Part shown: positions 4,328 to 56,604 of the stretch, piece after piece
Numbering within the stretch: the stretch's first letter is position 1
Layout: the number at the start of each line of letters is the position of its first letter
From: Bdellovibrionales bacterium Ga0074139
Lineage (GTDB): Bacteria; Bdellovibrionota; Bdellovibrionia; Bdellovibrionales; Bdellovibrionaceae
Direction: 5' to 3'
DNA length: 64,000 bases
Assembly (NCBI GenBank): GCA_001464795.1
Contig: LNEB01000015.1
Location: forward strand, 248,001 to 312,000
Notes under the pieces: generated by a model
The model's input: the letters and a program-made list of their open reading frames with translations, nothing else
Told to the model about the DNA's origin: nothing
Database searches by the model: none
Position numbers and translations under genes: made by a program

Positions 4328-5911
4328 TTATTCAGAAACATCCAGAGGTATAACTTCTCCTTTTCGGAGAGTTAAGGAAAACAGGGGTCTAAGAACCTCG
4401 CGGTCTGAAGACATTGTTAATTGACTGACAGCACCCGGAAAATTTTGCATGGAAATTAGCCCATTTCTGACTTCAGAGCGTGAGCTTGCACCTTTTAGGA
4501 TAAGGCCACGTAAAATCAGGGCACTTTCATAAGCCTGAATTTCCATCATGGTAGGGTCATTTTTGAATAGCGACTTAAACTCTGTGATAAAGCGAGAGTT
4601 TTTAGTGGCAGCCGAGTTTTGTGCAAAACCATCGACAAACAATAAAGAATTTTGAAATTGCCCTGCGCGCCTAGGAAGTCCGGGCCCATTCCAAAGATTT
4701 GTTCCTAAAAGATGCACATCTTTAACGCCCACGAAACTTAAAAAGGCAGAAATTTGCCCCATGTTTTTTGCACTATCAGGAATAAAAATTGCGTCGAAGT
4801 TGACGATGGGAGGTAAAATGTCTTCTGCATTTAAATTTTCTCTGGACGAGCGGTTTTTAACTTTTTGAGAAAATTCTTTTTGTTTAGCTTTGTACTCTTC
4901 CAGTCGAGCTTCGATATAAAAAGTTCCCACAAGCCTTTGAGCGGCATGTCTGAAGTCGGTAGCAGCCGGATCGTAAGTCTGAGCTGCTGTAATTTCTCCT
5001 CCACGTGCCATGACTTCATCCCAAAAAACATTGGCTGATTCAATTCCGTAGGGGTCGTTAGGAAACATAATGGCAAATTTTTTCATTCCATACTGATTCA
5101 TGGCTGTATGAACCAAGTGATGAATTTGCATTTCAGGCGTTAAAGAATTTCTAAAAATGAAGGGGCTGAGCTCTGTGACCCCTGATTTTTGAGAAAGAGT
5201 AATCAGCGGCGTTCCAAGCTCATCAGCCTTTAGTGCAGCACTTTCTGCCTCGCGGGATGAAAGTGCTCCGATGATGGCGACCACATTGTCTTCGCGCACC
5301 AAGCGCTCAACACCGCGGCGGGCTTTATCCAAGTTTCCTTGAGTATCAACTAAAGCAATTTTAAAATTACTAGAACCATAATGTAAACCAAGTCCCATTT
5401 GAATGGCCTTTAAGGCTCGCTGACCGACAGCACCGGTGCGTCCCGACAAGGGAAGCAGAACACCAATGGTCAAAGGGGAGACGCGGGACAACGAGGCCAG
5501 TAAGGCCAAATTGTTTTTAGCTTCTTGAGACCAAACGGATGTTACGTCGGTGGCAATCAATTGATTAAAATACTGAGTGGCAAGTTCTGTATTGCGGCGA
5601 ACCATTTCCTGCTCACCCAGGCGAAATAAAATTTCAGATCGGTAGGCCGTATTTTCAGGATTCGAGTAGGCCGCACGCAATTGCTCTGTGGGAAGGCTTT
5701 GCCAGTCAGGTGTTGTGGAAGTTGTTAATACTGTATTCGCATCAGGAGCAAGCAATGGTGGAGGGTTCACGGGTCTTTTGGGGGGCAGTGGCTGCAAAGA
5801 GGGCCGATTCACTCGTGTGGGCTGATCGTAGATCCCGCCGGACCTGGATCCTGATCTTAAGGCACAGGAAGTAACGATAAAACTGACCAATAGAGTAACA
5901 ACTATTTTCAC
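4328..5911 (-). CDS. Lipoprotein, penicillin-binding protein activator (LpoA)-like
   Basis: 527 residues. A signal sequence ends in the lipobox VTSC (Cys16), so the mature protein is probably lipidated. Residues from about 60 form a helical, TPR-like region. From about 150 ([17 protein letters not shown]) it is a type-I periplasmic-binding-protein fold. That helical plus PBP arrangement is the one of LpoA, which activates PBP1A from the outer membrane; amino-acid ABC receptors share only the PBP fold. It starts with GTG overlapping the dnaJ stop (GTGA). Linkage to grpE-dnaJ suggests an envelope-folding theme. The LpoA-like role is inference from fold; ligand binding cannot be excluded. Confidence 0.7.
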
Positions 5912-6876
5912 TTACGACTCCTAAAAAATTCTTTTAATCGTTTATCAAATTCTTTCACAGCATCAGGAGGACCAATTTTTTCAGCTAACTTTTCAACCAA
6001 AACTTTTTCTTCTTGGGTAAGCCTGGAAGGAATAATAATTTGAATTTTAACAAGCATATCTCCCGAGCCCAATCCGCCAAGCCTTGCAAAACCTTTTGAT
6101 TTCAAGCGGAAGCTTTGGCCCGAAGAGGCACCAGCGGGAATTTTAAGAACTGATTTTCCCATGAGTGTCGGGATTTCAATCTCACAACCCAGTAAAGCAT
6201 CAGTGAAGCTGATAGGGAATTCGACCAGCACATCATTTTCATCTCGGGTAAAGAAAGGGTGAGGTTGAATATTAATGATGACGTACAAATCGCCTGGAAT
6301 GCCGTTACTTGGGGGAACGTCCCCTTCTTGGTTCAGTTTTAATTTTTGATTTTCTTTTACACCTGCGGGAACTTGAACGGATAATTTAGCGGTCTCGTTA
6401 GAGGCGCCTTTTTGTCTGACAAAGGTGATAACCTTTTCACATCCTGTTGCCGCTTCTTCAAAAGTGATTGTCAGTGAATAGCGAAGATCGGCACCTCGCT
6501 GAGGTCTTCTGCTTCGCGCTTTGCCACCAGCAAAAATATCTCCAAAGACATCTCCGAAAATATCTTGAAAATTTTCAGGGCCGCCGTTAAAGGATCCGCC
6601 ACCAGCACCTGAATTTTGTCGAAAGCCTTCGAATCCTCCTGCGCCACCAAAGCCAGAGAAATCAGAGGTTCCAAAGGTGTCGTATTTTTTTCTTTTTTCT
6701 GGGTCACTTAAAACTTCGTAAGCTTCTGTGACTTCTTTAAACTTTTCTTCCGATTTTTTGTTGCCAGGATTTTTATCAGGGTGCAACTGCATAGCTAATT
6801 TTCGATAAGCTTTTTTAATCTCATCGGCAGTTGCTGACTTTGGAACCCCAAGAACGGAATAAAAATCTTTGCTCAC
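5908..6876 (-). CDS. DnaJ-type co-chaperone without zinc finger (CbpA-like)
   Basis: 322 residues. The J domain spans residues 1-68 with the HPD tripeptide at 32-34 that stimulates DnaK ATPase. It is followed by a Gly/Phe-rich linker and two C-terminal substrate-binding beta domains. The CxxCxGxG repeats of class-I DnaJ are absent, so it is a class-II J protein like CbpA. It starts with GTG five bases after grpE and overlaps the lipoprotein gene by four bases, so the three genes form one operon. It works in the cytoplasm with DnaK, which is not in this window. Confidence 0.9.
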
Positions 6877-6881
6877 GGCCC

Positions 6882-7391
6882 CTAGCTTTCTTGTTTGCGA
6901 GCGATAATCACGCGGCCTACGCGAAGTAGTTTTTCATGGTACCTGTAAGGCTTTTCAAAGACCCGCAGAACATTTCCCTCATCGACAGAAGTCGAGGGTT
7001 CGCTGCCGAGGGCTTCATGGATATTGGGATCAAAAGCAACGTTTTCAGAGGGCACTTCTTTGATCCCATGCTTCTCGAGAACCGTTTTAAGCTCTTGAGC
7101 TGTCATTTGAACGCCCTTGACGTAAGTCTCTATGGCATCTGGAGTCACCCCAACAGCAAGTGCACGTTCGAAATTATCAAGCACACCTACGATGTCCCTG
7201 GCCAGCCTTTCGCCGCCGTATTTTAATAAATCACTGCGCTCTTTGATGGCGTTTCTTTTGTAATTTTCAAATTCTGCGCGCAAATAAAGAAAATCATTTT
7301 TAAATTTTTCAGCCTCAGCTTGTAAAGCAAGGGTTGTATCAAGGGTTTCCTTGGGGGCTTCATTTTGTGAATTTTCATTATTTTCAGACAC
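6882..7391 (-). CDS. grpE: Nucleotide exchange factor GrpE
   Basis: 169 residues. A long N-terminal helix (residues 20-60, [10 protein letters not shown]) is followed by the conserved GrpE core with DNFERA, the FDPNIHEAL motif and the C-terminal beta-wing VGRVIIA. GrpE dimers release ADP from DnaK. The start codon is GTG at 7391 with AGGG upstream. A TTGACA (7447-7442) lies upstream on the minus strand and could be the -35 of the operon promoter, but no good -10 matches it. No CIRCE element was seen. Confidence 0.93.
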
Positions 7392-52248: not shown

Positions 52249-53028
52249 ATGAGTCAACCTACCAACTCGACCACAGATTTTAAGCCCCTCATATCGGGCG
52301 AAGGTTTGGGTTACTCCTTTGCAGACCAAGTTTTATTTAAAGAAATTAATTTCAAAATTTTTGAAGGGGAGCATGTTGTCCTCATCGGTCCCAGTGGACA
52401 TGGAAAGTCACTACTACTTAAGCTGATGGCAGGTCTATTAGAGCCGCAAACGGGTCGACTTTATTTCATGGAAAAAAACTGGAGCGAACTCTCTATAACG
52501 CAACGCAATTCTCACTACCTAATGAGAGGAATGCTGTTTCAGAAAAATGCCTTGTTTGATTCTTTATCCGTTCTAGAAAATGCTCTATTTCCTCTTCTGG
52601 AAACAGAAACTTCTTATTCAGATGTAGAAAAAAAAGACAGGGTCGAGTTCCTATTGAATGCTGTGGGGTTGTGGCATGCCAAAGACCTCTATCCCAAAGA
52701 GCTCAGCGGAGGAATGCAAAAAAGATTGGGAATTGCACGAGCATTAGTTCTTAAACCTAAAATACTTTTATGTGATGATCCAGTCGCTGGCCTTGATCCG
52801 ATTACAGCAAGAAATATTGTCAAATTAATACAAGAAATGCAGTCTCAAAATCAAACAACGTGTGTTTCAATATTAAATGACATGAATCGTACCAAAGAAT
52901 TAGCAACTCGAATTCTGATGGTTATGGATCAAAAAGTTGTAGATCTCGGAAGTCCACAAGAGGCTTTGGAAAATCAAAACAAAAAATATTTTCAATTCTT
53001 ACGTGGCGAGCCCTATGACGCTAATTAA
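52249..53028 (+). CDS. Mla-like ABC transporter ATPase 1 (degenerate site)
   Basis: 259 residues. Walker A GPSGHGKS (47-54), Q-loop FQK, signature LSGGM (152-156), Walker B ILLCDDP. The catalytic Glu after Walker B is Asp (D177) and the H-loop His is Asn (N210 in SILND), so its own ATP site is probably impaired. It belongs to the MlaF (organic-solvent resistance) ATPase group. ATG at 52249 follows GTGAG. It overlaps the second ATPase gene by 14 bp. See the second ATPase for the complementary signature. Confidence 0.85.
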   Translation: MSQPTNSTTDFKPLISGEGLGYSFADQVLFKEINFKIFEGEHVVLIGPSGHGKSLLLKLMAGLLEPQTGRLYFMEKNWSELSITQRNSHYLMRGMLFQKNALFDSLSVLENALFPLLETETSYSDVEKKDRVEFLLNAVGLWHAKDLYPKELSGGMQKRLGIARALVLKPKILLCDDPVAGLDPITARNIVKLIQEMQSQNQTTCVSILNDMNRTKELATRILMVMDQKVVDLGSPQEALENQNKKYFQFLRGEPYDAN

Positions 53029-53755
53029 AGTTGAAAATTTAGAAAAAAGCTTCGGTGACAGAAAAATATTAAATAACTTAACTTTTCAAGTTTTAGCCGG
53101 AGAAATTCTTTTTATTTTAGGGCAATCGGGAACTGGCAAGTCTGTGTTGCTGAAGTGTTTGGTGGGACTTTTAATTCCTGAAAAGGGAAAGATCATAATT
53201 GATCAGTTTGATTTAACGGGTCGTCTAGAGAAAGACTTCCAAGAAGTTCGTAGAAAGTGCGCTATGGTTTTCCAAAACCCAGCACTCTTTGACTCTTTGA
53301 CAGTTGAAGAAAACATTGCCTTTGGACTTCATCGACTAACCACTTTTAATAAAATGGAAATCAATAATAAAATTAAAAAGGCAGTTGAATCTGTCCAATT
53401 ATCTATAAAAATTTTGCATAAAAAACCTAACGAACTTTCCTATGGTCAGCAAAAACGGGTGAGTCTTGCCAGATCACTTGTGTTAGAGCCGGAAATTTTA
53501 CTTTTCGATGAACCAACGACAGGTTTAGATCCTGTGTCGACAACGGCTATCAATCGACTAATAGGTTATATATCTAAAGAGTACAAAACCACATCTTTAG
53601 TTGTAAGTCATGACATCCAATGTGCTTTTGAAATTGCTCAAAGGGTTCTCTTTCTTGATAAAGGCCAAGTCATTTATAATGACAGCATACAGAATATTCA
53701 CCTGTCGAAGCAGCCCCTTGTTCAACAATTTTTTCAGGAGATTCAGCTGAAGTGA
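53015..53755 (+). CDS. Mla-like ABC transporter ATPase 2
   Basis: 246 residues. Walker A GQSGTGKS (36-43), Q-loop VFQNPALFDSLTVEEN, signature LSYGQ (141-145, LSGGQ in most), Walker B LLFDEP (D165, E166) and H-loop SHD (H199) intact. It is thus catalytic in Walker B and H-loop but has an atypical signature, the mirror of ATPase 1. The two would form a heterodimer under the two permeases. I chose ATG 53015 over GTG 53003. The stop overlaps the permease start as GTGA. Confidence 0.85.
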   Translation: MTLIKVENLEKSFGDRKILNNLTFQVLAGEILFILGQSGTGKSVLLKCLVGLLIPEKGKIIIDQFDLTGRLEKDFQEVRRKCAMVFQNPALFDSLTVEENIAFGLHRLTTFNKMEINNKIKKAVESVQLSIKILHKKPNELSYGQQKRVSLARSLVLEPEILLFDEPTTGLDPVSTTAINRLIGYISKEYKTTSLVVSHDIQCAFEIAQRVLFLDKGQVIYNDSIQNIHLSKQPLVQQFFQEIQLK

Positions 53756-54531
53756 TCACTTCCATTTTGTCTTTTTTTGATAATATTGGAAGGCCGATTC
53801 TATTTGCCCTACACTTAATGAGGCTCACACTTAAATTGTCATTCAGTCGTAACGAAACGTTTCAACAAATATATAAAATCACAATCAATTCTTTACCGAC
53901 AACCGTCATGGCTGGATTTTTTGTGGGTGCAATTATGACTATTCAGTTCACTTTGCAGATGAGAGATTTTGGAGCTCTAAGTTATTTAGGAGGTTTGGCA
54001 ACGAGTGGAACTTTCAGGGAAGTCGGCCCCTTGTTAATTGGCTTTATGCTTTGTGGAAAAGTAGGTGCTTTTACAGCTTCTGAGCTTGGTACCATGAAAA
54101 TTACAGAGCAATTCGACGCGATTCGATGTTTGGGTGCAGATCCTTTAAAAGAAATAGTCATCCCACGCTTTATAGGCATTATCGTTTCATCTTTTTTTCT
54201 TCTTGTTGGTGGATTGGTCGCTTCTGTAGCTGGTGGAATGCTGCTTGGAATATTGTATGCTGGAGTTTCTGCTGACGAGTATTTAAGGCATATTCCTAGA
54301 TTTCTTCTAGGTATCTCAATATTAAGTGGCTTTATCAAAAGCTTAACGTTTGCTATTTTACTAGCTACCATCTGTACTTTTAAAGGTTACCACGTTAACG
54401 GAGGCGCTAAAGAAGTGGGGCAAGCTGTTGTCAGCACAGCCGTGGCTTCTATGGTCGCCATTGTATTGTTTGACTGGCTGACAAGTTTTTCTTTGGAAGT
54501 TGTGATTCAAATATTTCAAGGCTTCACATGA
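53752..54531 (+). CDS. MlaE-type permease 1
   Basis: 259 residues with five or six membrane helices. The conserved MlaE stretch is present: GFMLCGKVGAFTASELGTM, then KITEQFDAIRCLGADPLKEIVIPR. It forms the inner-membrane channel for phospholipid transfer between the ATPases and the MCE protein. GTG start overlaps the ATPase 2 stop; it overlaps the next permease by ATGA. Confidence 0.88.
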   Translation: MITSILSFFDNIGRPILFALHLMRLTLKLSFSRNETFQQIYKITINSLPTTVMAGFFVGAIMTIQFTLQMRDFGALSYLGGLATSGTFREVGPLLIGFMLCGKVGAFTASELGTMKITEQFDAIRCLGADPLKEIVIPRFIGIIVSSFFLLVGGLVASVAGGMLLGILYAGVSADEYLRHIPRFLLGISILSGFIKSLTFAILLATICTFKGYHVNGGAKEVGQAVVSTAVASMVAIVLFDWLTSFSLEVVIQIFQGFT

Positions 54532-55247
54532 TTCATTTTTTAAATCAAACTCGACTGGCTTTACCGCAAACTCTCCGCAGAAAAAAAATTATTTTTGAGC
54601 AAATAGATTTTATAGCAGTCCAAAGTGCTCCGATCATTTTGATCTCTGTCGCATTTGCTGCAGTTGTTACTGTTCTTGAATCCAGCTTTCATATGAAACT
54701 TGTGATTCAAAGCGACTCTATGGTTCCTGGATTTTCATCATTGTTAATACTTCGCGAGCTAGGAGCCATCGTGACGGCCCTATTATTAACTTCAAGAGTC
54801 GGTGCTGGAATGGCCTCTGAAGTGGCAGGGCAAAAAGTTTCTGAACAAATTGATGCCCTACGGTTACTAGGGATAAATCCCTTTGAATTCATCGTTGCGC
54901 CCAGGTTGGTGGCGTCAGTGATTAGCACTATTGTGCTTGTTGCAATAGCGAATGTGGTTTCACTTTACATGTCAATGATCGTTAGTTCACAGATTTTATC
55001 CATTCATCCTGAACTGTTTTGGCAGATGATGAATCGCTTTGTAGAATTCAAAGACTACGGATTTTCATTGATTAAAGCAGCGGCTTTTGGAGCGTTGATT
55101 CCAATAATCAGTTGTTATTTTGGATTTCAATCTGAATCCGGTGCCGAGGGAGTGGGTCGAACAACCACAAAAAGTGTCGTTGTCACATCAATATTGATAA
55201 TAGTGTTTGATTTTGTACTGTCTTATATATTCTCATACTTTTATTAG
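54528..55247 (+). CDS. MlaE-type permease 2
   Basis: 239 residues, MlaE family: SRVGAGMASEVAGQKVSEQ, then IDALRLLGINPFEFIVAPR and several membrane helices. It differs clearly from permease 1 (GAGMASEVAGQK against GAFTASELGTMK), so it is not a recent duplicate. With permease 1 it probably makes a heterodimeric channel, as YrbEA/YrbEB do in actinobacterial Mce systems. 12 bp before the MCE gene. Confidence 0.88.
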   Translation: MIHFLNQTRLALPQTLRRKKIIFEQIDFIAVQSAPIILISVAFAAVVTVLESSFHMKLVIQSDSMVPGFSSLLILRELGAIVTALLLTSRVGAGMASEVAGQKVSEQIDALRLLGINPFEFIVAPRLVASVISTIVLVAIANVVSLYMSMIVSSQILSIHPELFWQMMNRFVEFKDYGFSLIKAAAFGALIPIISCYFGFQSESGAEGVGRTTTKSVVVTSILIIVFDFVLSYIFSYFY

Positions 55248-55259
55248 TTAGGAGTTAGA

Positions 55260-56036
55260 ATGAAAATCGAGACAAAAGTGGGTCTCCTTTCGGTTGTTGG
55301 TCTTATCAGCATTGTTTTGTTTGGTTACTGGGTGGGTTTATTAAGTCCCTTCAATGATTCTTACACTGTTAAGGTTATGTATAACTACGCAGGTGGAATA
55401 GAAGTGGGTTCACCAGTTCGTGTTATGGGAATAAAAGTTGGAAAAGTAACGGCCATTGATTTCACACCTGACTATAAGTTTGAAAATGGTGAAACAGTTC
55501 AATTGCAAGTCACCATCGGTGTCAGTCAAGCCTCGTGGAAGACCATCAAAAAAGACAGTCGCTTTTTTATTAATCTTGCAGGAGTTATTGGTGAAAAATT
55601 TTTAGAGATTTCCCCCGGCTCTGCGGAGTCCGAGAATCTGACTAATGGGCAATCTATTCGTGGTGAAGATCCACCTCGTATTGATCAGCTGATTTCACAA
55701 AGTTACGGGCTGGCAGGAAAAATGATTGAAATCATTGAAAAAAATGAAGGCACCGTGGGTAATACGATTGCTCAAATTGATAAATTATTAACGAATTTCA
55801 ATAAAACCTTGCAGCTTCTCGACAAAACCCGTCAAAACAAGGATATAGAGCGCATGGTGAATAATGCTATTGTCATAAGTGATAACCTGGCCTATTTAAC
55901 GACTCAAATGAGGGGTAAAAAAGCAGAAGAAACTTATGATTTACTCCATAAGTTAATTTGGCGCTTAGAGCCCCTCGATAAAGAAGCAATTAAAAAGTTT
56001 TTCCAAGAAGAAGGCGTCAGAGCCAGAATTCTATAA
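55260..56036 (+). CDS. MCE/MlaD family lipid-binding protein
   Basis: 258 residues. One N-terminal membrane anchor (6-28), then one MCE domain (about 35-115, YNYAGGIEVGSPVRVMGIKVGKV, shown in parts), then a helical tail. MlaD forms a hexameric ring that shuttles lipids across the periplasm. TTAGGAG precedes the ATG. It is followed by a small exported protein at 56050, which may be the outer-membrane end of the system. Confidence 0.9.
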   Translation: MKIETKVGLLSVVGLISIVLFGYWVGLLSPFNDSYTVKVMYNYAGGIEVGSPVRVMGIKVGKVTAIDFTPDYKFENGETVQLQVTIGVSQASWKTIKKDSRFFINLAGVIGEKFLEISPGSAESENLTNGQSIRGEDPPRIDQLISQSYGLAGKMIEIIEKNEGTVGNTIAQIDKLLTNFNKTLQLLDKTRQNKDIERMVNNAIVISDNLAYLTTQMRGKKAEETYDLLHKLIWRLEPLDKEAIKKFFQEEGVRARIL

Positions 56037-56049
56037 AAAAGAGGTTAAA

Positions 56050-56604
56050 ATGAAATCAATTCTACTTATTATTTCTTCAATTCTGCTTTCCTCAGCCCTA
56101 ATGGCACAGCAAATTGATTCTTTTAATTACTCTTCCAATTACAAACTCCGAGAAGATCGAAAAGTGGGTGCCGGCTTATCAGTTGGTGGTGCTTTGGGTG
56201 CCGTGGGTGCCATAGTTGAATTAAATATTGAAGATGATGACGGAGCAGTGGCTGGTTTTGGAACAGGCAGTGGTTACCAGACTATGGCCCTAAGCTGGAA
56301 ACACAGCTTTGAGGGTGAATACTTCACTCCTTACACAACTCTTGGACTTGCCCATTGGTGGGACAATGGAAATTCGGGTGATATTAGCAACTCCTCTGCA
56401 CTTAAGAACTTTTTAAGTGATGAAGAAAAAAGATCGGGTCGTTTTGGAATTGAATTGATGTCTGGCTCTGCAGGCATGCAATTTAATCAGTTAACAGGTG
56501 AACTGGCTGGCAGCTCTTTCTTTATAGAATTTGGCGGACTTTTTTCGTTGAGTCAGTCCGAGCTTTTGCCAACAGGATCCGTTGGAGCCCTTTACTACTT
56601 CTAA
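56050..56604 (+). CDS. Small exported beta-barrel-like protein
   Basis: 184 residues. Signal peptide (about 1-20, ending ALMAQ). The mature part alternates polar and aromatic residues, with Gly-rich turns (AGLSVGGALGAVGAIVELNI, TMALSWKHSFEGEYFTPYT), and ends in Phe (SVGALYYF), the usual end of outer-membrane barrels. Last gene of the Mla-like operon, ended by the terminator at 56629. A link to lipid transport is inferred from position only. Confidence 0.65.
   Translation: MKSILLIISSILLSSALMAQQIDSFNYSSNYKLREDRKVGAGLSVGGALGAVGAIVELNIEDDDGAVAGFGTGSGYQTMALSWKHSFEGEYFTPYTTLGLAHWWDNGNSGDISNSSALKNFLSDEEKRSGRFGIELMSGSAGMQFNQLTGELAGSSFFIEFGGLFSLSQSELLPTGSVGALYYF

Follow-up and report, generated by a model that had tools for sequence, protein, structure and literature searches.

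The window analysed, a stretch of 64,000 nucleotides from contig LNEB01000015.1 of Bdellovibrionales bacterium Ga0074139, hosts a tightly packed plus-strand operon with the gene order F1-F2-E1-E2-D-X, divergent from the mdh/sucCD cluster (Table 1). From F1 to E2 the end of each gene overlaps the start of the next, beginning with the start of F2 on the end of F1. The preliminary description was confined to the interval 52249-55247, and thus left out D and X, which complete the operon. The two ATPases are 38% identical to each other, and F1 and F2 are 36% and 31% identical, respectively, to E. coli MlaF.

Table 1. Genes of the two-ATPase MCE operon, with positions in the window
Gene	Product	Coordinates	Strand	Supporting features
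F1	MlaF-like ATPase	52249..53028	+	Pfam ABC_tran E=1.9e-33; D177 and N210, normal LSGGM
F2	MlaF-like ATPase	53015..53755	+	Pfam ABC_tran E=2.8e-35; LSYGQ, intact Walker A/B and H-loop
E1	MlaE-type permease, GTG start	53752..54531	+	Pfam MlaE E=4.1e-58
E2	Second, distinct MlaE-type permease	54528..55247	+	Pfam MlaE E=1.6e-59
D	MCE (MlaD) subunit	55260..56036	+	Pfam MlaD E=2.2e-18
X	Predicted 8-stranded outer-membrane beta-barrel	56050..56604	+	Structure prediction, pLDDT 93

E1 and E2 both score far above the cut-off of the Pfam MlaE model, and can be assigned to the MlaE family of permeases. The occurrence in the same operon of D, a MCE-domain protein matching MlaD, qualifies the ensemble as a type VIII ABC transporter. 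In D, an N-terminal transmembrane helix and a single MCE domain precede a tail of ~115 residues, helical and modelled at low confidence. X matches no Pfam or NCBIfam model. Its closest structural relatives are barrels of the OprF/OmpA type, the best match being the OprF N-terminal barrel 4rlc (E=2.5e-5), and in related genomes X is often kept directly downstream of D. By analogy with the barrel residing within MlaD in Veillonella (PMC10665443), X is a putative outer-membrane partner of the transporter. Three further MlaE loci are found in the same genome, and the two in which the ATPase can be clearly read (C13 and C14) have intact motifs. The MlaA, MlaC and STAS_2 (MlaB) families have no match in the whole genome, the E. 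coli controls being detected by the same searches. The system of the window should therefore be regarded as a MCE transporter, not as the E. coli Mla pathway.

F1 carries the Walker A GPSGHGKS, the signature LSGGM, the Walker B LLCDDP and the H-loop ILND; the corresponding motifs of F2 are GQSGTGKS, LSYGQ, LLFDEP and SHD. Asp177 of F1 occupies the position of the catalytic Glu (E170 in E. coli MlaF), and Asn210 that of His203. In ABC dimers each signature is opposed by the Walker A, Walker B and H-loop belonging to the partner domain, as described both for MlaF (PMC7367683) and TAP (PMC12422388). Because of this head-to-tail geometry, the deviations of F1 and F2 would come together in a single composite site, leaving the other to be made of intact halves. 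The preliminary description had drawn the same picture, assigning D177 and N210, next to a consensus LSGG, to the first ATPase, LSYGQ, next to intact Walker B and H-loop, to the second, and pointing to two distinct MlaE permeases. Motifs read directly in F1 and F2 bear this out down to the exact residue numbers, and the permeases, both matching Pfam MlaE, are only 25% identical. The complementary placement of the deviations, also proposed at that stage, extends well beyond the window, since losses are confined to one composite site in more than 120 orthologous loci.

The operon was gathered by whole-genome searches from ~120 genomes, spanning many families of the phylum, and its ATPases (125 F1 and 130 F2 sequences, two loci being present twice) were aligned with E. 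coli MlaF. The third residue of the F2 signature is Tyr in 112 sequences, Phe in 17 and His in one, and is never Gly. At the H-loop position of F1, Asn is found in 105 sequences, Ser in 14, Thr in two, Gly in one and His in three, and His has thus been lost in 122 of 125. The catalytic position of F1 is occupied by Asp in 94 sequences, by Glu in 30 and by Ser in one, which sets the loss of Glu at 95 of 125. None of the 125 F1 proteins has Glu and His together, as in the three proteins endowed with His the catalytic position is taken by Asp or Ser. No deviations affect the opposite composite site: SGG is found in all F1 (125/125), and Glu (130/130) and His (129/129) in all F2. Scored by pairs, site A is deviant in all the readable pairs, site B in none. 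The Walker A Lys of F1 is kept in the 120 readable rows out of 120, the D-loop Asp in 125 of 125. In no readable copy of F1 is there any damage to the SGG signature, the Q-loop, the D-loop or the Walker A Lys. The Gly of the D-loop varies in F2 (Ala or Ser in 7 of 130), whose D-loop belongs to the degenerate site, and in none of the 125 F1.

MCE loci of the phylum with a single ATPase supplied relatives of MlaF as controls, and all those that could be read (37/37) combine SGG, Glu and His. One more control, L259, apparently carrying the signature LSFGR, is a fragment of 25 residues and was discarded. Being nearly invariant in more than 120 orthologous loci, and missing in the 37 symmetric control ATPases, the motif pattern of F1 and F2 is not a product of chance. 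Not all the features of the window pair are equally widespread. The check suggested at the outset, namely whether D177, N210 and LSYGQ are maintained in orthologues, supported the idea: the loss of the signature Gly in F2 and of His in F1 stood, although the replacement of Glu by Asp did not prove universal. The latter is the rule in the class to which the window belongs and in some other families only; elsewhere Glu is kept, and the 30 occurrences of Glu mostly represent the clade-wise state of other classes. A random restoration of Glu and His among F1 orthologues, held at the outset to speak against the idea, was not encountered. The near-universal asymmetry is accordingly the loss of His in F1 together with the loss of the signature Gly in F2. 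At a few loci (L221 in G071, L207 in G111, L140 and L204) decay of the degenerate site is advanced, and either F1 reads Asp-Ser-Pro (L221) or F2 has the signatures LSFAV, LSFST or LSYVA.

Among 369 genomes of the phylum, 156 have the system, with E1 taken as its marker; E1 is single-copy in all but one of those listed. F1, F2 and E1 reside together on one strand at more than 120 loci from many families, each operon having two ATPases and two permeases, an organization other than the single MlaF/MlaE homodimer of the E. coli type. The distribution is uneven. Every genome sampled from genus g3 lacks the operon, as do many other families, and it is present in genus g6. In some genomes F1 is displaced by up to ~4.7 kb, still remaining linked; at seven loci (L049, L050, L062, L069, L075, L077 and L226) one or more unrelated genes, varying among species, lie between F1 and F2, F1 still being on the same strand and within ~5 kb. 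A scan of genome contigs retrieved relatives mostly in Bdellovibrionota, plus distant matches in Magnetococcales; of the latter, the one with a readable ATPase (L087) carries SGG, DEP and His.

In the ATPase tree F2 forms one clade (support 100), and F1, inclusive of an offshoot called F1b, another (support 92), both set apart from symmetric MlaF. The separation into two clades marks F1 and F2 as an old, stable pair. Since they are found in nearly every lineage sampled, the loss of His in F1 and of the signature Gly in F2 probably arose early. The Glu/Asp state of F1 has changed nine times on the E1/E2 tree. The F1 H-loop and the F2 signature exhibit a raw association, Asn going with Tyr and Ser with Phe; the test for correlated changes is underpowered, only 4-5 independent pairs being available on the E1/E2 tree, and coevolution of the two positions is for this reason not claimed. 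In one genome (locus L174, G200) F2 and E1 are naturally fused in frame (5609-7348), in a protein of 580 aa with a linker of ~70 residues, F1 being separate and located just upstream. This fusion ties the intact ATPase to E1. It is the only real F2-E1 fusion found, as the long E1 frames of L216 (547 residues) and L194 (487 residues) turned out to be off-frame upstream readings. F1b includes F1-like ATPases with an Asp-Asp-Pro Walker B and no linked F2 or permease, identified at L118 (6748-7506; G036:C1, ~867.7 kb), L119, L120, L122-L127 and L154. They make up one subclade inside F1, and several of them have regained, or kept, the His of the H-loop. The existence of these orphans indicates that F1-type ATPases can occur outside the operon.

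Taken together, these data make a heteromeric ABC lipid transporter of the MCE type (type VIII) the most probable product of the operon, with a consensus and a degenerate nucleotide site that would work in a TAP-like manner. Lipid as the substrate we infer from the family to which the proteins belong. The membrane part would consist of one E1 and one E2, and on the cytosolic side, beneath a ring of D subunits, would lie one F1 and one F2. Their assembly as a heterodimer is plausible in view of the persistent linkage of the four genes, the logic of the motifs and the single F2-E1 fusion. The consensus site, to which F2 contributes Walker A, Walker B and H-loop, and F1 the facing SGGM, would presumably be the hydrolysing one. 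In the mirror site, where the Walker A, Asp177 and Asn210 of F1 would face the SYG of F2, hydrolysis is predicted to be slow or nil. The latter site should still bind ATP, since neither the Q-loop nor the D-loop nor the Walker A Lys has been lost; the invariance of the Lys in particular suggests that nucleotide is bound by F1. In the classes which keep Glu, the F1 site may have residual activity. F2 would probably dock on E1, and F1 on E2. One ATP would be hydrolysed per cycle, and the two permeases would experience unequal force. Lipid would travel, in one direction or the other, between the inner membrane and the ring of D subunits, with the barrel X as a possible further station. That the operons represent a phylum-wide class of MCE lipid transporters, made of F1F2E1E2 heterotetramers hydrolysing only one ATP per cycle, is likely. 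The degenerate site would be at different stages in different lineages, and the stepwise growth of asymmetry could be traced within one orthologous family.

The presence of two permeases, and of a full ABC fold in each ATPase, could also be accounted for by a pair of distinct symmetric transporters, one made of E1 and F1 and the other of E2 and F2, co-transcribed by happenstance and sharing one MCE ring. A F1-F1 dimer would have two sites both devoid of the Glu/His pair, and a F2-F2 dimer two SYG sites. MlaF carrying the E170Q change fails to complement E. coli (PMC7367683), and an ATPase lacking this Glu is therefore expected to be dead as a symmetric dimer. Moreover, the complementary placement of the deviations is held in more than 120 loci, and the natural fusion links F2 with E1, not with E2. 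Two independent transporters have thus scarcely any likelihood. It may be alternatively supposed that F1 is decaying, or has a purely structural or regulatory role, as an unlinked regulator, and that a F2 homodimer alone drives transport. Divergence has indeed been faster in F1 (mean column identity 64%) than in F2 (74%), and F1 has lost catalytic residues and has orphan relatives in F1b. Yet a decaying or non-ATPase subunit would have no need for the SGG signature, the Q-loop, the D-loop and the Walker A Lys, all of them intact in F1, and a F2 homodimer would be equipped with SYG signatures only. Also this explanation is very improbable.

A third reading concedes that the transporter is heteromeric, and holds that it is functionally near-symmetric, both sites hydrolysing ATP, with Asp177 acting as a weak base and SYG being tolerated. 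The 30 F1 proteins which keep Glu are in line with it. However, no F1 protein has Glu along with His, His is missing in nearly all of them, the opposing signature Gly is universally lost, and the degenerate site of TAP binds ATP without hydrolysing it (PMC12422388). Hydrolysis at both sites appears quite unlikely. A lipid transporter with one working and one degenerate site remains the preferred interpretation and, if true, an obligately lopsided motor of this kind would mean that control by a degenerate site is not confined to ABC proteins of the exporter type. With the operon, one could cleanly address which of the two sites powers lipid transfer by MCE transporters, and whether asymmetry sets its direction; mutations in F1 are predicted to behave differently from mutations in F2.

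In the open papers, the coverage of which is incomplete, no report was found of a heteromeric ATPase pair in a MCE transporter, or of a heterodimeric or degenerate MlaF, and open papers similarly yielded no report associating Bdellovibrio with MlaE. The lopsided two-ATPase design appears to be new among the published relatives found, in which the ATPase motor is symmetric even where the permeases differ. MlaFEDB of E. coli, also a type VIII ABC transporter, shares with the system described here the MlaE-type permease, the MlaF-type ATPase (F1 having the same SGGM) and a MlaD-type MCE protein. As stated in the preliminary description, it is a symmetric assembly, built on a MlaF homodimer with two intact sites (PMC7367683), whereas two ATPases, one degenerate site and two permeases are found here. 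The minimal MlaEFD of Veillonella parvula similarly works without MlaA and MlaC, and has an outer-membrane barrel within the system (PMC10665443). In contrast, it relies on a single E and a single F, modelled with D as 2:2:6, and its barrel belongs to the same polypeptide as MlaD, X being instead the product of a separate gene. TAP1/TAP2 and similar heterodimeric ABC proteins offer a parallel for the nucleotide sites. The Walker A/B of one NBD and the signature of the other form the consensus site, in TAP the only hydrolysing one, and the mirror site is degenerate (PMC12422388). They have however an exporter fold, in which a single chain carries both TMD and NBD, whereas the operon encodes MlaE-type permeases and ATPases as four separate polypeptides, to be combined with a MCE ring. 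The nearest published case is mycobacterial Mce1, in which a heterodimer of MlaE-type permeases, YrbE1A/B, is found under a MCE assembly (PMC9882608, PMC10517005). Asymmetric permeases alone were thus already known (PMC9882608). The mycobacterial scheme, in which a permease heterodimer is served by a shared homodimeric MceG and six different MCE proteins, is not that of the operon, which combines two linked ATPases with one MCE gene.
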